Shown: positions 1 to 64,000, numbered from the stretch's first letter. The stretch: DNA of 64,000 nucleotides from Bdellovibrionales bacterium (GCA_018266355.1 JAFEAP010000020.1:1-64000); one strand, 5' to 3'. Numbers and translations: made by a program. The notes: a model not told the origin generated them from the letters alone.

Positions 1-1
1 G

Positions 2-1309
2 ACCCGTTATTCGGCCGAGGACGCGTGGGTTTCGCTGAACCTCTGGAAGGCGATGAAGCCCGAGCTCCAATCGGGGGGCCTCATGCGGGTCTTCGCCGAG
101 GTCGACCTTCCGCTCGTCCAGATCCTGAGCAAGATGGAACGCGCGGGCGTCTCGATCGACGTCGATTGGCTCAAACAGCTCGCCGCCGAATTCACGAAGG
201 ACATCGCGGCGGTCGACAAGAAAATCGAGAAATTCACGAACGGCCCGATCAATTTGAACAGCCCGAAGCAGCTCGGTACGCTCCTCTTCGAACAGCTGAA
301 GCTCCCGCCCCAAGGAAAAACCAAGACGGGGTACTCGACCGACGCCTCCGTGCTCGAGACGCTCGCGCCCATGCACGAAGTGCCCCGACTCATCCTCCAG
401 CACCGCGAGATCGCGAAACTGATGGGGACGTACGTCGAGCCGCTGCCGACGATGCGGGACGCGAAGGACGGGAAGATCCACGCGGGTTTCCATCAAACGG
501 TCGCGGCGACGGGCCGCCTTTCGAGCGCGGATCCGAACCTCCAGAACATCCCCGTCCGCACCGAGCGCGGCCAAAAGATCCGCCGCGCGTTCGTGCCCTC
601 GAAAGGGAACGTCTTCGTCTCGGCCGACTACTCCCAGATCGAGCTCCGGATCCTCGCCCAGATGTCGGGGGATAAGGACCTGATCGCCTCGTTCCAGAAA
701 GACGAAGACGTCCACCGCCGGACGGCCTCCGAGATCTTCGACGTGAAACCGGAAGCGGTGACCGATTCCCAGCGCGCGGCCGCGAAGGCGATCAATTTCG
801 GCCTCATGTACGGGAAGAGCGCGTTCGCGTTGGCCGCGGAACTCGAGATTTCACGGACGGAGGCGAAGGACATCATCACGAAGTATTTCGCGCGCTATGC
901 CGGGGTGAAAAACTTCCTCGACGGCCTGATCGTCGAGGCGAAGGAAAAGGGCGAGACGGCGACGTTGCTCGGCCGTCGGCGCATCCTTCGCGACATCAAC
1001 GCGAAAAATCCGGCCCTGCGCGCCTCCGCCGAACGGATGGCGATGAATACCCCGATCCAGGGCACCGCGGCCGATTTGATGAAGCTCGCGATGATCCGAA
1101 TCGACGAGGCGCTCACGAAGGGCGGACTCGCCGCGAAGTTCATCATCCAAGTGCACGACGAAGTCGTGATCGATACGCCGAAGAGCGAGGTCGAGCAAGT
1201 GAAGAAGCTCGTCGCGGATTGCATGGAGCGCGCGTTCGAAGGCGTGGTGAAGATCGATATTCCGCTGCGGGTAAACGTCGCGACCGGGGCGACCTGGGCG
1301 GATCTTTAA
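2..1309 (+). CDS. polA: DNA polymerase I, C-terminal part (5' end outside window)
   Basis: The reading frame is open from the window edge, so this is the 3' part of a longer gene. It replicates and repairs DNA, filling gaps and replacing primers. The first residues (YSAEDAW) match the end of the 3'-5' exonuclease-like domain. The rest is a complete family A polymerase domain: motif A DYSQIELR with its metal-binding Asp, motif B around AKAINFGLMYG (O helix), and motif C VHDEV with the second catalytic Asp. The gene ends in TAA and is followed by a hairpin at 1329-1350. Only the missing N-terminus, including any 5' nuclease domain, is unknown. Confidence 0.97.
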   Translation, partial: TRYSAEDAWVSLNLWKAMKPELQSGGLMRVFAEVDLPLVQILSKMERAGVSIDVDWLKQLAAEFTKDIAAVDKKIEKFTNGPINLNSPKQLGTLLFEQLKLPPQGKTKTGYSTDASVLETLAPMHEVPRLILQHREIAKLMGTYVEPLPTMRDAKDGKIHAGFHQTVAATGRLSSADPNLQNIPVRTERGQKIRRAFVPSKGNVFVSADYSQIELRILAQMSGDKDLIASFQKDEDVHRRTASEIFDVKPEAVTDSQRAAAKAINFGLMYGKSAFALAAELEISRTEAKDIITKYFARYAGVKNFLDGLIVEAKEKGETATLLGRRRILRDINAKNPALRASAERMAMNTPIQGTAADLMKLAMIRIDEALTKGGLAAKFIIQVHDEVVIDTPKSEVEQVKKLVADCMERAFEGVVKIDIPLRVNVATGATWADL

Positions 1310-38074: not shown

Positions 38075-39232
38075 TCAGTTCGAAGGAGTGACGCCGTACG
38101 GGAGGTACGTGACCGAGGCGGTCTCGTCACCGGTGAGCTTGTAAGCGTCGCCGATGAGCTGGATCATGTAACCCGTGCGGTAGTCCATCGCGATCGGTTC
38201 GGAGACCATCGGCGCGGTGGTTTCGCCGAGGTAGACCCAACCGGCCGAGCCGTTCACCGACTTCGGAACCGAGATGTCGACGCCGTTCGAGCCGTGCTTT
38301 ACGATCGAGATCGTGTCTTCGTTCGGACGGGAGGCGATCTGGATGTAGCGCTTCACGTAGCTCAGCTTGATCGCCGAGACCTGGGACTGGATTTGCGCGA
38401 AGACCGCGTTCATCGAGTTCGTGCAGATGTCGATCGGGGTGTGGCCGCCGATTTGTTGGCCGGCGCTCACGTAGCGGGTCGCGGCCCAGGCCGTGCCGCC
38501 GCCGAGCGCGGTGCAAGAGCGGCTACCGCTCGGGGAAACGACCGGGATCAGGTGGACCGAGCTCGCGAGCGCGGAGCCCTTGGCGTTCTTGATGCCGTTC
38601 AGGGTGCCGGACGCGATCGTCGGGTAAGGAAGGTACGGATAGGCCGAGTAGTCGACGCCGTCCGAGGAATCTTCGCCGTTCGAAAGGACGACGACCGCGA
38701 GGATCGCTTCCGGACGGATGAAGTATTGCTGGGCGGCCGAAGAGGCGAGCGCGGTACCGATGTTCTTCAGGCCCGGCTCGTAGCCGTCGGTGCCGGTCGA
38801 GTTCACGGAGACTTGGTAGTTCTCCGGAGCGACGTACATCGAGTGCGGGATCGTCGACGTGTGCGGGGCTCCCGGATACGGAGCGACCCAGTTCGCGGAG
38901 TTCGCGTCGTACTTCGAAGCCGAGATCTGGGTGATCGACGGCGTGCCGGTGAGCGGGATCGCGGTGACGCGGAAGTCCCAGTCTTGGGCGTTCAACGTGG
39001 CGAGGAAGCTCTTGATCGAAGCGTTCAGCTTCGCTTGGACCGAGTAGGTCGAGCCCGTGTTATCGACCGCAAGGAGCAGGTCGACTTTCGGTGCGATCGA
39101 AGATCCGCCGGCGGAGCCGCTGTCTTGTTGGGATTGGACGACGCCGTAGGATTGCTGGCCGCAGCTCGAAAGCGCGACGAAGGCAGTCAGGGTAGCCGCC
39201 AGGATGGAAGAATGCCGAATCCATTGTTTCAT
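38075..39232 (-). CDS. VWA-domain lipoprotein
   Basis: 385 residues from the ATG at 39232 (AGGTGC ribosome site). The signal ends in lipobox LSSC. A Ser/Gly/Gln-rich linker leads to a von Willebrand A domain: VDLLLAVDNTGST carries the DxxxS metal site (MIDAS), with FRVTAIPLTG and ILAVVVLSNGEDSSDG further on. Such lipoproteins bind ligands or partners at the cell surface. It has its own promoter (39332-39362) and terminator. A second VWA lipoprotein heads the motor operon at 56969. Confidence 0.88.
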   Translation of the reverse strand: MKQWIRHSSILAATLTAFVALSSCGQQSYGVVQSQQDSGSAGGSSIAPKVDLLLAVDNTGSTYSVQAKLNASIKSFLATLNAQDWDFRVTAIPLTGTPSITQISASKYDANSANWVAPYPGAPHTSTIPHSMYVAPENYQVSVNSTGTDGYEPGLKNIGTALASSAAQQYFIRPEAILAVVVLSNGEDSSDGVDYSAYPYLPYPTIASGTLNGIKNAKGSALASSVHLIPVVSPSGSRSCTALGGGTAWAATRYVSAGQQIGGHTPIDICTNSMNAVFAQIQSQVSAIKLSYVKRYIQIASRPNEDTISIVKHGSNGVDISVPKSVNGSAGWVYLGETTAPMVSEPIAMDYRTGYMIQLIGDAYKLTGDETASVTYLPYGVTPSN

Positions 39233-56642: not shown

Positions 56643-56968
56643 CCGACCCGGCCCTTTCAGGAGTTCTGGTCCCGTTTATGCGAAGCGTTAAGTCCATCGC
56701 CCCTAACCCGAAATTTAAATCCGGGCACGGTTAGGATTTCATGACTCGGCGTCCCGATTTGGATTCGCCTTAGAATCCAAAGAGATAGCGCATTGCATTT
56801 AATGCATAGCGCATTATTTCGGTTAAGTATTGTAACCATTTGGAATTAAAAGGATTTAGTAAAAAGACGCATCGCGTCAAATTTACCCTTTCCCTTTGAA
56901 TCCCAAAGGCGTAAAAGCGTGACCGGGTTACGACACATTACGTCAAAGAGAGAGTCCGAGGAGGCGCT
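56643..56968 (+). promoter_or_regulatory. AT-rich control region before the motor operon
   Basis: 326 bases without a gene and much richer in A/T than the rest. CCTAACC (56702-56708) pairs with GGTTAGG (56729-56735), possibly ending holA. ATAGCGCATT occurs twice (56785-56794 and 56806-56815), 21 bases apart, and between them is the palindrome TGCATTTAATGCA. GGTTA/TAACC flanks a short spacer at about 56820-56836. A strong GAGGAGG ribosome site precedes 56969. These repeats are candidate activator or repressor sites. Confidence 0.55.
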
Positions 56969-58402
56969 ATGTCCTTCACGTTTGGAAAAATCGAAAAGAG
57001 AAATGAAATGCAACGCGTCGCGTCGATCGTGCTCGCGCTCGTTGCCGGCGCGGGTTGTACCCAAGCCTCGCACAACGAATTCAAAATGCTGCCGGCGCAG
57101 GAATCCGCGGCCGCCGCGTTCGAAGTCGGTGAGACCGTCGTCGAGAAGCACGGCGCTCCGGTCGACATCCTCTGGGTGATCGACAACTCGGCCTCGATGC
57201 TCACGTCCCAAACGAAGCTCAAGAACGGCCTCGCTTCCTTCGCCCGCGACTACCTCACGAAGTCGGGCACGGACATCCAGCTCGCCGTCATCACGACCGA
57301 CGCCTTCGTCGCGAACGAAGCGTGGGAAAAATACCTGAACACGGAAAATCCGGACACGAAGAAGACCCCGCTCCAAGTGCATGCCTCTAAGGCGGGTGGC
57401 CAGAAGCAATGGGGCCCGGACTACGCGAAACTTTCCTCCGGCGCGCTCATGAAAACGAAGAACGGAGCCTCCGGTCTCGTTTCGAACTTCCAATCGCGCG
57501 TCCTCGTCGGCACCCAAGGCATCTACGAAGAGCACGGACTCGATTCCGTCACCGAGTTCCTCGCCGACAACGAAAAGGGTTCCGGACTGAACAAACTCTT
57601 CCGCAAGGGCTCGCAGCGGATCATCATCTTCCTCTCCGACGAGGACGATCAGTCGGTCGGCGACCACGTCGGCCCGGAACCGCGCAAGCTCCTCTACAGC
57701 GGCTCGTACTACACCGGTAAGGACGCGGCGACGGCGGCGAAGATCCTTCCCTCGCAGTTCTCGATCAACTGCCCGGGCACGCCGAACGAAGCGAAGACTC
57801 CGATCACGGCTCAGACGGCGATGACCCTTTGCGTGGACGCGAGCTCGCTCCAGCCGGTCGGCGAGTTCAAGTCGAAACTCGACGCGTTTTTCCGCGACCT
57901 CGACGGTTCGCCCGCCGCGAACCCGAACTACTTCGTGACGGCGATCGTCGCGAAGGACGATTCGACGATCGAGACGCTCCGCCGGAACACGAAGGAAAAG
58001 AATTCGGAGACCGGTCTCACGGTCATCACGAACGAAAAGGGTAGTCGGTATCTCGACCTCGTCGGCCAAGTCGCGAACGGCTCGTTCGCGATGGACATCG
58101 GCGCGGACGATTACTCGCCGATCTTGAAGAAGATCGGTCTCGAGATCGAGAAGCGCTCGGTCGTGAAGAAGACGTCGCCCCAAACGACGTTCACCCTCGA
58201 GCGCGCGCCGGATACTCGCGAACGCCTCGTCGTCACGGTGGAAACCGCGGACGGCCGTTCGGTCGAGCTCTCGGCGAACCAATTCCACGTCGCGGCGAAC
58301 AAGCTCGTGATCACGGATAAAAACCTCATCGCCGTTCTCCAGCCGGGAGACCGGGTCAGAGTTCAGTACCAGCCGTCCACGGTACTTCCGGCAGCTAAAT
58401 AA
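56969..58402 (+). CDS. VWA-domain lipoprotein heading the motor operon
   Basis: 477 residues from ATG 56969 (GAGGAGG ribosome site; an ATG at 57008 is possible). Signal with a weak lipobox ending GAGC near residue 30. The von Willebrand A domain begins VDILWVIDNSASML with the DxSxS metal site, continues IQLAVITTDAFV and IIIFLSDEDDQ. A C-terminal beta domain follows (about 400-477). Followed at 33 bases by the TolQ-type gene. It could be an adhesin like CglB of the Myxococcus gliding machine. Confidence 0.85.
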   Translation: MSFTFGKIEKRNEMQRVASIVLALVAGAGCTQASHNEFKMLPAQESAAAAFEVGETVVEKHGAPVDILWVIDNSASMLTSQTKLKNGLASFARDYLTKSGTDIQLAVITTDAFVANEAWEKYLNTENPDTKKTPLQVHASKAGGQKQWGPDYAKLSSGALMKTKNGASGLVSNFQSRVLVGTQGIYEEHGLDSVTEFLADNEKGSGLNKLFRKGSQRIIIFLSDEDDQSVGDHVGPEPRKLLYSGSYYTGKDAATAAKILPSQFSINCPGTPNEAKTPITAQTAMTLCVDASSLQPVGEFKSKLDAFFRDLDGSPAANPNYFVTAIVAKDDSTIETLRRNTKEKNSETGLTVITNEKGSRYLDLVGQVANGSFAMDIGADDYSPILKKIGLEIEKRSVVKKTSPQTTFTLERAPDTRERLVVTVETADGRSVELSANQFHVAANKLVITDKNLIAVLQPGDRVRVQYQPSTVLPAAK

Positions 58403-58435
58403 AAGCGTAGTTCAGTAACAGAGGAGTCTAGTTTT

Positions 58436-59095
58436 ATGGGTTTCCTTGAATTTCTTAAGAACAACTTCATGCACGTCATGCCGATCTTCGTCGCGGGCAT
58501 CATCGCCGTCGCGATCGCCGTCGAGCGCGTCGTCGCGCTCTTCCAGAAGTATCCGATCCGCAACCTCGACGCGTTCTTCGCGCGGATCTCCGACCTCGTG
58601 ATGGCCGATCGAGTGTCCGAAGCGGTCATCCTCTGCGACCAAATGCCGAACAAGCCGTCGGCCCAAGTCGTGAAGCTCGCCCTGATGCGCGCGCACCAGC
58701 CGGAAGAGCTGATCGAGAACGGTCTCGGGATCTCCGTGAACAAGGCGGCCCAAGCGATCCAAAAGCGCACCCAATTCCTCGCGACGATCGCGAACGTGGC
58801 GACCCTCCTCGGTCTCCTCGGCACGATCGCCGGCCTCATCGCTTCCTTCCAAGCGGTCGGCGCGGCGGACGCCTCGCAAAAGTCGACGCTCCTCGCGAAC
58901 GGGATCTCCACCGCGATGAACGCGACCATGCTCGGCCTCGGAGTCGCGATTCCCTGTATGGTGATGTTCTCCTTCCTCATGAACCGCACGAACCGCCTCA
59001 TCGCGGAAGTCGATCAGTCGGCCATGCAGGCGATGGATATCCTCAAGCAGAAGTTCTACGCGGCCCAAGAAAAGACGCTCAAGATCGCGAAGTGA
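58436..59095 (+). CDS. TolQ/ExbB/AglR-type proton channel
   Basis: 219 residues, MotA/TolQ/ExbB family. Three membrane helices: about 10-30, 117-140 (NVATLLGLLGTIAGLI) and 156-180 (STAMNATMLGLGVAIPCMVM). The large cytoplasmic loop lies between helices one and two. The family forms a proton channel around two TolR-type stator proteins, driving periplasmic work. It is followed by a strong hairpin, then two TolR/ExbD genes. Confidence 0.94.
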   Translation: MGFLEFLKNNFMHVMPIFVAGIIAVAIAVERVVALFQKYPIRNLDAFFARISDLVMADRVSEAVILCDQMPNKPSAQVVKLALMRAHQPEELIENGLGISVNKAAQAIQKRTQFLATIANVATLLGLLGTIAGLIASFQAVGAADASQKSTLLANGISTAMNATMLGLGVAIPCMVMFSFLMNRTNRLIAEVDQSAMQAMDILKQKFYAAQEKTLKIAK

Positions 59096-59108
59096 ATCTA
59101 GGTAAGCA

Positions 59109-59133
59109 GGGGAGCGAGCGGTGCTCGCTCCCC
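59109..59133 (+). promoter_or_regulatory. Perfect hairpin between the TolQ-type and TolR-type genes
   Basis: GGGGAGCGAGC pairs with GCTCGCTCCCC around a 3-base loop, 13 bases after the TolQ-type stop. There is no T tract, so it is more likely an mRNA-stabilising or attenuating structure than a full terminator. It could raise TolQ-type expression over the downstream genes. Confidence 0.65.
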
Positions 59134-59205
59134 GTAACTGGAAAGAAAACGAAACGCATAAGGAACCTGACGCCTTAGCTAGAAATTAAGATCGTCGGAG
59201 TATTT

Positions 59206-59652
59206 ATGAAGAAAAAGGGATTCTTAAAACACGGAGAGTTCGAGCAAGACTTCGAACTCAACATCGCCTCGATCATCGACTGTTTCGTCGTCTTGATCGC
59301 GTTCGTGCTCGTGTCGACGTCCTTCTTCTCGATCGGCATCATCGACGCCGAAGTCGCCGGAGCCTCGGACGACGCCCCGGCCGCCGTGGACACCGCGCCG
59401 GTCGTGATCGAGTTGAAGGCCGACCATTCTTTCGTCCTCAAGACCGGCTCGTTCGGTCAACACGTCACGAAGATCGCCGCTCGGAACGCGGCTTGGAACT
59501 TCGACCGCCTCGCCGGTTCGCTCGACTCGCTCAAAGAAGAAGCGAAGTCGGCGATCGTCGTCGCGGACAACTCGGTCAGCTACCGCGACGTCATGGCTTC
59601 CATGGAAGTCGCGAAAGGGAAGATCGCCCAGGTCAACCTGGGTGGTTTTTAA
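59206..59652 (+). CDS. TolR/ExbD-type protein 1
   Basis: 148 residues. Short cytoplasmic N-terminus, one membrane helix (about 20-42) with the conserved Asp in IIDCFVVLIAFVLV, then a periplasmic domain with VVIELKADHSFVL and a SYRDVMASMEVAK end. The Asp carries protons through the TolQ channel. Starts 110 bases after the TolQ-type gene and 10 bases before the second TolR-type gene. Confidence 0.87.
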   Translation: MKKKGFLKHGEFEQDFELNIASIIDCFVVLIAFVLVSTSFFSIGIIDAEVAGASDDAPAAVDTAPVVIELKADHSFVLKTGSFGQHVTKIAARNAAWNFDRLAGSLDSLKEEAKSAIVVADNSVSYRDVMASMEVAKGKIAQVNLGGF

Positions 59653-59662
59653 GGGTATCGAT

Positions 59663-60145
59663 ATGTTGAAGAAATCGTTCTTACCGCACGCCCCGAAAAG
59701 CGAGCAAATGGCGCTGCAGATCACCTCGATGGCCGATATTTTCGTGATCATCCTCGTGTTCCTGCTCAAGTCCTACTCGGTCGAAGGCCTTCCGTACCAA
59801 CCGACCGTTCCGCTCACGCCGCCGGTCGCGAAAGGCCGCGTCGAGAAAGCCGACGCCCTCAAAGTCGAGATCGCGAAGGACGCCGTCGCCCTCGGCGGCA
59901 AGAACGTCTCCGCGATGAGCACGTTCAAGTTCGCCAAACAAGACATCGACGGGGAAGGGGCCTCGTCCTCCCTCCGTCGCGCGCTCTCCGCTTCCCGCGG
60001 CTCGGCGCTCTCCGGACCGAAAGGCCCGAAGCTGATCGTGGTCGCCGACGAAGGCGCCCCGTACGAAACCATCAAAGCCGTCCTCGCCTCCGCGGCGAGC
60101 GAGGGCTACCTCGATATCCAACTGGCGGTGGCCCATGCTGAATAA
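59663..60145 (+). CDS. TolR/ExbD-type protein 2
   Basis: 160 residues from ATG 59663 (a GTG at 59642 would overlap the previous gene). One membrane helix (about 21-41) with conserved Asp in SMADIFVIILVFLL, and a periplasmic domain ending APYETIKAVLASAASEGY, the standard ExbD C-terminal segment. Differs strongly from the first TolR-type protein, so the channel may contain a heterodimer. Overlaps the next gene by 11 bases. Confidence 0.87.
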   Translation: MLKKSFLPHAPKSEQMALQITSMADIFVIILVFLLKSYSVEGLPYQPTVPLTPPVAKGRVEKADALKVEIAKDAVALGGKNVSAMSTFKFAKQDIDGEGASSSLRRALSASRGSALSGPKGPKLIVVADEGAPYETIKAVLASAASEGYLDIQLAVAHAE

Positions 60146-63100
60146 ACAGTCGAGTAGCTCGATCTTTCTCCGTCAGTTCGTTCTCGCTCTTTTGATCGCG
60201 AGCCCGACCGCCTTCGCGGCCGACAAGGCCGAAGAGACGACCGACCGCGTGGTCGACCAGGCCGCCGTCGACATGCAGGACGAAGCCGACCGGGACCTCG
60301 CCCTCCTCGTGAAACGGTACCAAGGGACGAAGCGCGAACCGGAGATGCTCCTTCGCCTCGCCGAACTCCGCCTCGAGATCGCCGACGGGATGTTCCGCGT
60401 CGCTTACGGCCCGGGTGAAACCGGCTTGAAGAAGGCGTACCGCGCGAAGCTCGCCGCGGGTATTCTCCCGCTCTCCCGGATCCTTTCCGCTTACGGTCGC
60501 TCCGAGCAGGCCCCTCGCGCCCTCTACCTCCGCGGTAAGGCGGAAAAGGAACTCGGCCAATCGAAAGCGGCCGTGAAGGATCTCGAAAAGTTCCTCGCCG
60601 CGAACCCGAAGCGCGACGAAGCTCCGGTCGCCGCGATGGCCATCGCCGACCTTTCGATCGATTCCCGGAACTACGCGCGCGCCGTCTCCGTACTGAACGG
60701 TCTCGCCGCGAATCCGAAGCATTCCCTCTATCCGAACGCGCTCTCGAAGCGCGCGTGGGCGCTCCAAGCCGACGGTCGCCACGAATCCGCCGCCGCCGAG
60801 ATGGCCCGCCTCGCCGCGGTCTTCAAGGCGCGCGCCGGCGCGAAGACGCTTTCCGCCGCGGACGCCGCCCTCCGCGAAGCGGTCCAGAACGACGTTCCGG
60901 GGATCGCCTATATGGCGCACCAGGCGAACGCGAAGAAATTCAACCTCCTCGCCGTGAACGCGCTCTTCCGGTCTTTCGACACCGGCGAAGGTTACCAAGC
61001 CATGGCGATCAAGTTCGCCGACCACCTCCGCACCGCCGACCTGAACGCCGACCTTCGCGCATGGAAGGCGATCGTGCTCAAGAGCGATCCGTCGCGGAAG
61101 AGCCTCGAGATGCTGATCGGCATCCTCGAATACGACCTCGAACGCGCCGCCTACCTCGACGTCGTGAAGGATTCCTCCGACGTGGCCGACATCATCGCCG
61201 CGAATCCGGAGCACCCGGAAGCCGAACACGCGCGCAAGCTCGTCGTGAAGGCCGCCGACAAACTCACGAAGCGGATCACCGACTATAAGAAGACGACCGC
61301 TTCGACGGAAGCCGAACGGAACCTCGGCCAACTCCTCGTTTCCTTCGACCGTATGACGTCCGCGAACGACGCCCGCCGCTTCGGACTCCGCTGGAACCTC
61401 GCCGAGACGCATTTCGCCCTCGAGCAGTACGCGCAGGCCTCGAACGCTTACCGCTGGATCGCCGCGAACTGGGTGAACGGCGTGAACGCCCCGGCCACGA
61501 TCTCTCCGAAAGCCGCCCGCGCCCAAGCGATCGAAGCCCGTTTCCAATCCCTCCGCGCCTCCGGCGTGATTCCGGAAGACCTCGAAGTCGGCGCGAAAGC
61601 AGGCAAGGGCTTGAGCGCCGCGAACCTCGCTTCCCTCCGCGAATTCGTCGCGTGGACGGTCGAATCCGAGAAGCTCGACGGCGTGGCCCTCGAGCACTAC
61701 GATTTCGAAGCCACCCGCGCGCTCTACGCGGCCGGCTTCCAGGACGAAGCACTCGGCCGGGCGAAAGCGCTCGCCCTCGGGAATCCGCGCGGCCAGTTCT
61801 CGGTCGGCGCGGCCTCGCTCGTCGTCGACACCTGGATCGCCCGCAAGCGGTGGGACGCCGTCGAAGCCGAAGCCCGCGCTTTCGCGGCCGCTTCCGGCTG
61901 GGCCACGAAGGATTTCGGGCACAAGATGCTCGTCCAGGCCGCCGCCGCGAAGTTCAAGCGCGCCGAAATCGCTTTCGCCGCGAAGGACTATCCGACGGCG
62001 GGCGTTCAAGCCCGCGAGTTCCGCTCGACCTACCCGAACAGCAACCTGAGCCTCGACGCGATGGGAATCGCCTGTAACTCCGATCTGAACCAAGGCGCGC
62101 TCGACGCTGCCGTCTCCTGCTTCTCCGACCTCGCTTCGGAATTTCCGAAGGCGAAGGCGGCGGTCCAAGCCCTCCGCACGGTCGCCCGCATCGAGGACGA
62201 TCGCCTCCATTTCTCGGCCGCGGCCGCCGCTTACGCGAAGGTGCTGAGAGCGTCTCGCTCGTCGATGTCGGCCTCCGAATCGATGGCCGTCCGGAAGCGG
62301 ATCCTCCTCCTCGCTCGCGCCGAAGGCGACGCCGGGAAAATGGAAGCGGTTTCGAGCGGTAAGCAGTTCTGCGCTCCGAAGCTCGAAAAGGTTTGCGACA
62401 TGAACCTCGCCCTCGCCGCGCTCATCCGCGACGATTCCTCCGCGGGTGCGGTCTCGAGAGCTTACTCCCGGATGGAACGCGCTTCTGCGGAACTGCGATC
62501 GATTTGGGCAACGCTCGCGCTCGACCACGCGAACTACGCGGATCCGCGCGCGGTCGATCGCGCGCTGAAGGTGCTCGCTTCGACGTGGAAGGCGACCGAT
62601 CCGTCCGTCCAGTACTTCTTGATCGCCCGCTTGACGAAGTCGGTCCCGGCGCTCCTCGAACGCGACCGGAAGGCCGTCCAGTCGATCGAAGTGCTCGCGA
62701 ACGAGGCGACGATCACCCGCCGCATGCGGGCGCTCACCGCGTTCGAGAACCGCACGAACCTCGCGGTCGCCGTTCCGGTGAACGCGGTCCGCGCGGTCTC
62801 CCAGAACGAGCTCTTCCTCGCTTACTCGGATTTGATCTCCGATCTCCGCGCGATCCCGGCGCCGAAAGGCCCGACGAAGCAGGCGACGGCGGCGATGACC
62901 GCCGAGCAGAATCGCCTGATCGCCGGATTCGTCCAGCCGTTCGTGCTCAAGTCGCGGAAGATCCGCGACGCCTCGCTCGCCTTCGAGATGAAGGAGAAAC
63001 GGGGCCTCGATCCGGATACCGTCGACGGACTTTGGGATCGTCCGATCGCCGGCGGCGTGAATCAAGCCGCGCTCCGCACGGAGTGGGCGAAAGCGATCCG

Positions 63101-63323
63101 CGACGGAAACTGGTCGCGGGTGGCGTTCCTCTCGAACGAGGCCGCCGAAATGAAGGGCGTGCCGTCCGGTTGGTCGAAGGCCGCCCGCGCGATCACGCTC
63201 GCGACGGCCGGTGCGGCCGCCGAAGCGAAAACGGTTTTCACGGACGCTTGCCGGGACACCGGCGGGTCGTCCTCGCTCCGCGACGCCTGCCGCGTCTCGG
63301 TGCGCGGGAAAGGAAGAGGGTAA
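60135..63323 (+). CDS. Very large exported helical-repeat (TPR-like) protein
   Basis: 1062 residues with a Sec signal (about 1-28, ending AFA). The mature protein is built of paired helices, such as ALYLRGKAEKELGQSKAAVKDLEKFLA and YANAL-like repeats, fitting TPR or related solenoid folds along nearly the whole length. Cys pairs occur near 645 and 663. It overlaps the TolR-type gene and precedes a small exported protein. Periplasmic TPR proteins serve as scaffolds in Agl-Glt gliding machinery and Tol-like systems. Confidence 0.85.
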   Translation: MLNKQSSSSIFLRQFVLALLIASPTAFAADKAEETTDRVVDQAAVDMQDEADRDLALLVKRYQGTKREPEMLLRLAELRLEIADGMFRVAYGPGETGLKKAYRAKLAAGILPLSRILSAYGRSEQAPRALYLRGKAEKELGQSKAAVKDLEKFLAANPKRDEAPVAAMAIADLSIDSRNYARAVSVLNGLAANPKHSLYPNALSKRAWALQADGRHESAAAEMARLAAVFKARAGAKTLSAADAALREAVQNDVPGIAYMAHQANAKKFNLLAVNALFRSFDTGEGYQAMAIKFADHLRTADLNADLRAWKAIVLKSDPSRKSLEMLIGILEYDLERAAYLDVVKDSSDVADIIAANPEHPEAEHARKLVVKAADKLTKRITDYKKTTASTEAERNLGQLLVSFDRMTSANDARRFGLRWNLAETHFALEQYAQASNAYRWIAANWVNGVNAPATISPKAARAQAIEARFQSLRASGVIPEDLEVGAKAGKGLSAANLASLREFVAWTVESEKLDGVALEHYDFEATRALYAAGFQDEALGRAKALALGNPRGQFSVGAASLVVDTWIARKRWDAVEAEARAFAAASGWATKDFGHKMLVQAAAAKFKRAEIAFAAKDYPTAGVQAREFRSTYPNSNLSLDAMGIACNSDLNQGALDAAVSCFSDLASEFPKAKAAVQALRTVARIEDDRLHFSAAAAAYAKVLRASRSSMSASESMAVRKRILLLARAEGDAGKMEAVSSGKQFCAPKLEKVCDMNLALAALIRDDSSAGAVSRAYSRMERASAELRSIWATLALDHANYADPRAVDRALKVLASTWKATDPSVQYFLIARLTKSVPALLERDRKAVQSIEVLANEATITRRMRALTAFENRTNLAVAVPVNAVRAVSQNELFLAYSDLISDLRAIPAPKGPTKQATAAMTAEQNRLIAGFVQPFVLKSRKIRDASLAFEMKEKRGLDPDTVDGLWDRPIAGGVNQAALRTEWAKAIRDGNWSRVAFLSNEAAEMKGVPSGWSKAARAITLATAGAAAEAKTVFTDACRDTGGSSSLRDACRVSVRGKGRG

Positions 63324-63329
63324 TCGGTC

Positions 63330-63692
63330 ATGAAATATCTCGCGAAACTCACGATCACGCTCGTGCTTTCGATCTTGGTCGGTGCGTTGATCGACGGCGC
63401 TCGCGCCGCGCCTTCTGCGAAGCATCCCGCGAAGAAGTCGCATCAAGTCCGCAAAGGCAAGGGCGCCAAGAAGAAGGCCCTTCGCCACGCGTCCTACGGC
63501 GGGGAAGCCCTTAAGCCGAAGACGTCGCTCAAATTCGACGGTCGCAGCGTGGAAGCGCTGCGCGCCGGAAAGTATGACTCCCTGTCCATCGGCGACGAAG
63601 GAGCCAAAGGGGCCAAGCGCCTTTACGAACTTCCCGCGAACTTCCAAGCTCGCGCCGCCGATTCCGAATCCGAAATGAGGTACCGCCAATGA
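63330..63692 (+). CDS. Small basic exported protein of the motor operon
   Basis: 120 residues with a signal (about 1-26, ending ARA). The next 30 residues are very rich in Lys, Arg and His (KSHQVRKGKGAKKKALRH), then a charged helical tail. It may bind peptidoglycan or LPS through the basic stretch. It begins 7 bases after the repeat protein and overlaps the next gene as ATGA. No family recognised. Confidence 0.75.
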   Translation: MKYLAKLTITLVLSILVGALIDGARAAPSAKHPAKKSHQVRKGKGAKKKALRHASYGGEALKPKTSLKFDGRSVEALRAGKYDSLSIGDEGAKGAKRLYELPANFQARAADSESEMRYRQ

Positions 63693-64000
63693 GCGCCCAA
63701 AAGAAGATGATCCAATCGAAGCAAGTCTTTACCTACCTGGTGAAGGTCGTCGCCGGCCCGGGTGAATCCACTCGCGTCTGGAACACCAAGCAACCCATGG
63801 TCGTCGGTCACCCGATGCGCTGGGAGATGGTCCAAACCGACGAAGGCGTGAAGATCTCCGCTCTCTGGACGGAGAAAGAGCACCTCGTGAAGGATGCCGA
63901 CATCGCGAAGGGCAAGGGCTCGGTGAAGCTCGTCTGCGGGACCGCGAAGGATGCCGGTACGCTCCAAGTCGAGATCCAGCCGGTCGCGAAACTCGCCGCC
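63689..64000 (+). CDS. Last gene of the motor operon, cut by the window end
   Basis: ATG at 63689 overlaps the previous stop; 104 codons are visible and the frame is open to the edge. The start reads TYLVKVVAGPGESTRVWNTK and then VVGHPMRWEMVQTDEG, a beta-rich domain without signal peptide, perhaps FHA-like and cytoplasmic. In Myxococcus a membrane protein with such an N-terminal domain (GltG/AgmX type, with a TonB-like end) is part of the machine, but the rest of this gene is not visible. Confidence 0.65.
   Translation, partial: MSAQKKMIQSKQVFTYLVKVVAGPGESTRVWNTKQPMVVGHPMRWEMVQTDEGVKISALWTEKEHLVKDADIAKGKGSVKLVCGTAKDAGTLQVEIQPVAKLAA

Follow-up and report, generated by a model that had tools for sequence, protein, structure and literature searches.

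An Agl-Glt-family operon headed by a MIDAS lipoprotein gene in a Bdellovibrionales genome

The operon and its Agl-Glt components

We analyzed the 64,000-nucleotide stretch (hereafter the window) that opens contig C12 (JAFEAP010000020.1:1-64000) of a genome from a Bdellovibrionales relative of the predator Bdellovibrio (GCA_018266355.1; 3.91 Mb in 30 contigs, assembly 93% complete). The window has a GC content of 63% and ends inside an operon that, judged by sequence, is a member of the Agl-Glt family. Genes were called with a self-trained gene finder seeded with the known operon. Reading the contig past position 64000 showed that the operon extends to about C12:68345, with all genes on the plus strand in the order VWA lipoprotein with a metal ion-dependent adhesion site (MIDAS), AglR, AglQ, AglS, GltD, GltF, GltG, a GltA/B-type barrel, a GltC-like protein, and a 189-residue exported protein. 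An earlier note on this DNA had proposed a gliding-type (Agl-Glt) envelope motor, and the genes on which it relied (a VWA lipoprotein, a TolQ-type protein, two TolR-type proteins, a 1062-residue exported repeat protein, a small basic exported protein, and a further gene) are all present on the plus strand where it had placed them. Neighboring genes overlap by 4–11 bp or are spaced by 6–33 bp (−11 to +33 bp), in agreement with the short gaps and overlaps described there, the one exception being the 110 bp between aglR and aglQ (TolQ and TolR1).

Profiles of the window clade were compared with myxobacterial proteins of Archangium lansinium and Pyxidicoccus fallax, chosen as references; the Pyxidicoccus AglR (245 residues) and AglS (194 residues) are identical in length to those of Myxococcus xanthus (PMC3169522). 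The TolQ/ExbB/MotA-type proton channel protein (58436-59095, +) matched MotA_ExbB (PF01618, E = 4.7e-26), and its window-clade profile matched AglR at 99.9%. Both TolR-type proteins matched ExbD (PF02472). The profile of the first (59206-59652, +; E = 1.5e-11) reached 97.9% against AglQ vs. 84% against AglS, and that of the second (59663-60145, +; E = 1.6e-12) reached 97.4% against AglS vs. 1% against AglQ, so that a single set holds one AglR and two different TolR-type partners, with the reverse pairings scoring lower. The AglQ call rests on the family profile, as the window protein by itself is too diverged for assignment. The channel residue Asp25 (the AglQ D28 position) is kept in both AglQ and AglS and is invariant even when the genome’s own TolR and ExbD are included, and the transmembrane threonines T130 and T164 of AglR are likewise invariant.

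Downstream of the motor genes lies a 1062-residue exported protein (60135-63323, +), given a TPR match by the family libraries, whose profile matched GltD at 99.9% over 865 columns; the same protein gave 5% against GltE and 12% against GltC. The small exported protein that follows (63330-63692, +; 120 residues, 25 of them Lys or Arg vs. 11 Asp or Glu) occupies the same cluster slot as GltF and is GltF-like by a family profile of 80%. The GltG-like bitopic protein starts at 63689 (+) and continues beyond the window to C12:65509, with a single transmembrane span and a TonB-like C-terminus; its AgmX/PglI C-terminal domain (myxo_SS_tail) scored 94 bits (cut-off 40), the GltG model gave 1e-29, and the profile match was 99.8%. 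Its cytosolic part had no Pfam FHA match, and the top-probability matches in a fold search were to the FHA protein TIFA (0.8–0.96) but with E-values of 0.2 or worse. The outer-membrane barrel (C12:65516-66253) scored 91 bits against OMP_myx_plus (cut-off 60), with profile matches of 98.4% to GltA and 97.9% to GltB, and is followed by the TPR-like GltC-like protein (C12:66250-67779; GltC model 1e-11, profile 98.0%) and the 189-residue exported protein (C12:67776-68345). Because their model scores fall far under the equivalog cut-offs, GltG and GltC are regarded as distant relatives.

Part by part, these matches to Archangium and Pyxidicoccus proteins bear out the Agl-Glt-type reading, with AglR, AglQ, AglS, GltD, GltF, GltG, GltA/B, and GltC all assigned (GltF via the family profile) and mismatched pairings giving lower scores. 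The description of the system as a related but compact motor stands for the relationship and only in part for the compactness, since equivalents of GltD, F, G, A/B, and C are present, but GltE, H, I, J, and K are not in the cluster. As in the proton-driven Agl-Glt gliding machine of M. xanthus (AglRQS, GltA-K, CglB), these equivalents of AglRQS and Glt proteins are accompanied by a VWA surface protein. Unlike in M. xanthus, they form a single operon rather than three separate loci, the VWA gene is operon-linked, the five Glt components just named are missing from the cluster, GltG has no FHA domain detectable with Pfam, and the R, Q, and S proteins are not sister to AglRQS.

The linked MIDAS lipoprotein and the parallel clusters

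The first gene of the operon (57008-58402, +; the longest open reading frame begins at 56969, and 57008 is the probable true start) encodes a VWA/MIDAS surface lipoprotein of the Bd1483 type, for which a CglB-like role is proposed. It contains the MIDAS motif DNSAS and a cysteine at the lipoprotein position, Cys17, that is kept in at least 90% of aligned homologs; the −3 residue of its lipobox is atypical, those of congeners being mostly typical. The Pfam VWA_2 match (E = 0.069) was below the Pfam cut-off, and NCBIfam gave matches to CglD (E = 7e-9; 34 bits vs. a cut-off of 400) and to a Bdellovibrio MIDAS adhesin family (E = 3e-8). A PDB sequence search with the protein returned no match. In a fold search, a predicted model of modest confidence (pLDDT 66.6) resembled integrin beta I domains with E = 6e-11 and SpaC, a pilus adhesin, with E = 2e-8. 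The MIDAS motif, the CglD and MIDAS-adhesin matches, and the fold search support the predicted VWA domain.

The AglR alignment brought in 80 loci, and a profile of this VWA subfamily found members at 12 of them. In 11 the gene precedes aglR on the same strand, and in the remaining one it lies downstream of gltC; because the profile was made from such proteins, other VWA types may be missed. Eleven of these loci are titled as Bdellovibrionota-type organisms, and the twelfth, titled Nitrosovibrio, groups with the 11. The latter (L053) is an Agl-Glt cluster placed inside Bdellovibrionota in a metagenome-assembled genome titled Nitrosovibrio sp., probably a binning error. The order VWA-R-Q-S-GltD is kept in two congeners (L185 and L189), in family members from two other genera (L191 and L192), and also in L042-L045, L051, and L056. 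Nonsynonymous divergence (dN) was 0.09–0.42 vs. synonymous divergence (dS) of 1.2–2.2, which indicates only that the proteins are constrained because dS is near saturation. The Bd1483-Bd1473 operon of Bdellovibrio bacteriovorus, its order read from strain kdesi (L156, called Bd1483-type by inference from published gene names and order), has the same order and strand: the VWA/MIDAS lipoprotein first, then AglR, AglQ, and AglS, followed by GltG, the outer-membrane protein, and the GltC-like protein. The kdesi and window AglR are 42% identical and the VWA proteins about 26% identical, and the kdesi VWA and aglR genes are separated by a gap of 565 bp.

Glt-like genes, whose absence from the whole genome the earlier note would have read as a sign of an ordinary Tol or TonB system, are present in four Agl-Glt clusters: A (the window cluster), B (C12:98-107 kb), C (C4:34-47 kb), and D (C23:6-24 kb). 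An exact 36-bp overlap inside polA is common to the contig ends at C12:1 (window positions 1-36) and C23:1 (C23:1-36, L016), suggesting that the contigs probably adjoin and that a single chromosome carries clusters D, A, and B within about 132 kb. One or more AglR proteins of this kind occur in each of the 24 relatives searched. In a concatenated R-Q-S tree, the window cluster and the genome’s own cluster C fall in an 18-row clade with members nearly all titled Bdellovibrionota, and cluster B groups with B. bacteriovorus L157 and the myxobacterial AglRQS. A tree holding the window clade together with the VWA-first type of B. bacteriovorus (L156) was 5.9 log-likelihood units better than the free quick search (p = 0.65 in the approximately unbiased, AU, test); given its better likelihood, the two may be one clade.

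Other candidate surface proteins were seen in the genome. A second VWA/MIDAS lipoprotein-like protein of the same subfamily (385 residues, E = 5e-18) stands alone in the window at 38075-39232 (−). In cluster C, a VWA lipoprotein with a long Pro/Thr-rich linker follows gltC (L018:152-1495, −), which is the alternative location observed for the adhesin gene. Cluster B ends with a lipoprotein of carbohydrate-binding (PA14-like) appearance (L022:2914-3771; C12:106914-107771), perhaps the adhesin of that motor.

Candidate functions of the machine

Four tonB/agl operons, or expanded core complexes, have already been described in B. bacteriovorus (Lambert, 2010, PMC2797640; Luciano, 2011, PMC3169522), and the window machine is therefore not new in kind. 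There, Bd1481 is aglR and Bd1480 is aglQ, and two transposon mutants, in Bd1481 and Bd1483, were weakened in biofilm predation (PMC2277423); induction of bd1480 on surfaces is cGAMP-dependent (PMC9140294). CglB was reported only from Myxococcales (Luciano, 2011, PMC3169522), and a 2026 review names the gliding motor of Bdellovibrio, along with its adhesins and force path, as a major challenge still open (PMC13104615).

We think it probable that the products of the operon form an Agl-Glt-family machine like that of Bd1483-Bd1473, with a motor that moves the VWA adhesin; membership of the family is shown by sequence, and we infer the force path and gliding. Proton flow through AglRQS would move or pull GltG, from which the Glt proteins would relay the force to the outer-membrane barrel and on to the VWA lipoprotein. 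Like CglB in Myxococcus, the lipoprotein would grip a substrate or the surface of prey. The outcome would be slow surface translocation or powered grip, by one of four parallel machines in the genome.

Several points weigh against this reading. Gliding has not been seen in the lineage, and many bacteria with related clusters are not known to glide, the Agl-Nfs system assembling the spore coat (PMC3858216). GltE, GltH, GltI, GltJ, and GltK are not in the cluster (GltE was looked for in the cluster only), the last four being likewise absent in Bdellovibrio (PMC3169522), and the window GltF alone gives no match, its identity coming only via the family profile. The CglB-like role is proposed from the VWA domain, the MIDAS, and the lipid anchor; a position of the window R, Q, and S proteins as sister or ortholog of the myxobacterial AglRQS was ruled out (p-AU 2e-7). 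GltG and MglA, both named in the earlier note as search targets, were found. MglA (L166:1384-1977, −; C21:202.7 kb) matches Myxococcus MglA structures with an E-value of 2.5e-81, adjoins recR, and has Gly21. Its presence was nevertheless dropped as a test of gliding because loss of mglA in Bdellovibrio ended invasion and not gliding (PMC3983030), which makes it non-discriminating. The roadblock protein MglB was not found in the genome, as in B. bacteriovorus, an absence that is uncertain given the incomplete assembly. The Bdellovibrio MglA, also without an MglB, has Ser21.

The same family of machine could instead act on a surface polymer or an envelope layer, moving or assembling it as Agl-Nfs does, with the VWA protein as cargo or polymer linker and no movement of the cell. 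Core complexes do occur in non-gliding bacteria (PMC3169522), and Agl-Nfs, a paralogous machine that works in sporulation, rotates spore coat material (PMC3858216); it and the myxobacterial G4, G5, and M2 paralogs share with the window operon a common core complex on an AglRQS-type motor, and the window cluster differs from them in its dedicated RQS set, its own VWA protein, and the lack of spore coat genes nearby. The genome also has four machines, of which the cluster at C12:98 kb, and not the window cluster, groups with AglRQS. We regard this alternative as rather unlikely: an operon-linked MIDAS adhesin suits traction more than polymer wrapping, and the similarly organized Bd1480 is surface-induced (PMC9140294). 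Less likely again is an energized machine for contact with prey or host, in which the motor would present or pull the MIDAS adhesin so that another cell is held or entered. The window protein matches the Bdellovibrio MIDAS adhesin family, whose member Bd0875 acts in prey entry (PMC11003981), and another cluster, Bd0411-Bd0421, peaks at prey entry, with Bd2368-Bd2377 peaking at exit (PMC12546842); however, deletion of the similarly placed adhesin Bd1483, a lipobox MIDAS protein, leaves invasion normal (PMC11003981), and the genome has no known predatory lifestyle. An ordinary Tol-Pal or TonB energy system would account for the TolQ/TolR/ExbB-like channel proteins, and the operon does share with Tol-Pal and ExbBD-TonB a homologous proton channel and, in GltG, a TonB-like C-terminus. 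It differs from them in its two distinct TolR-type proteins and its big TPR protein and barrel, and contains no tolA, tolB, pal, or TonB-dependent receptor. The genes past position 64000, where tolA, tolB, and pal would have pointed to an ordinary system, are GltG-, GltA/B-, and GltC-like, and a true TolQRAB operon (L012), several ExbBD sets, and four MotAB pairs lie elsewhere in the genome. The Tol-Pal or TonB identity was rejected on operon content, and we give it almost no weight.

The window operon is a real and well-supported member of a known family, and the linked adhesin is the part of interest. The MIDAS lipoprotein that heads the operon, kept in the genus, the family, and the similarly organized B. 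bacteriovorus operon, is a candidate Bdellovibrio gliding adhesin. A more specific proposal, which we advance tentatively and at somewhat less than even confidence, is that the CglB-type adhesin, encoded by a separate gene in myxobacteria, is in Bdellovibrionota a MIDAS lipoprotein dedicated and matched to one motor and encoded in that motor's operon. A single cell would then run several Agl-Glt motors on different integrin-like feet, with the window VWA protein serving as the moving adhesin for the window motor. If true, this would fill the place of the adhesin so far missing from Bdellovibrio-type gliding. The machine type is known, and its linked adhesin makes the Bdellovibrio gliding question testable, with four parallel motors in one cell available for comparison.

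Upstream region and the aglR-aglQ gap

The operon is preceded by an AT-rich region with short palindromes (56643-57007, +), a probable control region that the earlier note had also described as AT-rich. Its GC content is 0.45 overall and 0.30–0.38 at 56801-56900, vs. 0.63 for the window, and it contains inverted repeats. No sigma-70-like promoter site was found upstream of the operon, and a search of the same region for riboswitches or known RNAs gave no Rfam match, with a single hit at chance level. Within the aglR-aglQ gap, an 11-bp perfect stem-loop (59112-59136, +) is absent from two congeners; it could alter the ratio of R to Q and S, but a functional role in setting stoichiometry was considered and set aside, the congeners being without it. 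The AT-rich control region also includes a palindromic block at 56785-56815 in which ATAGCGCATT is repeated, a possible operator.

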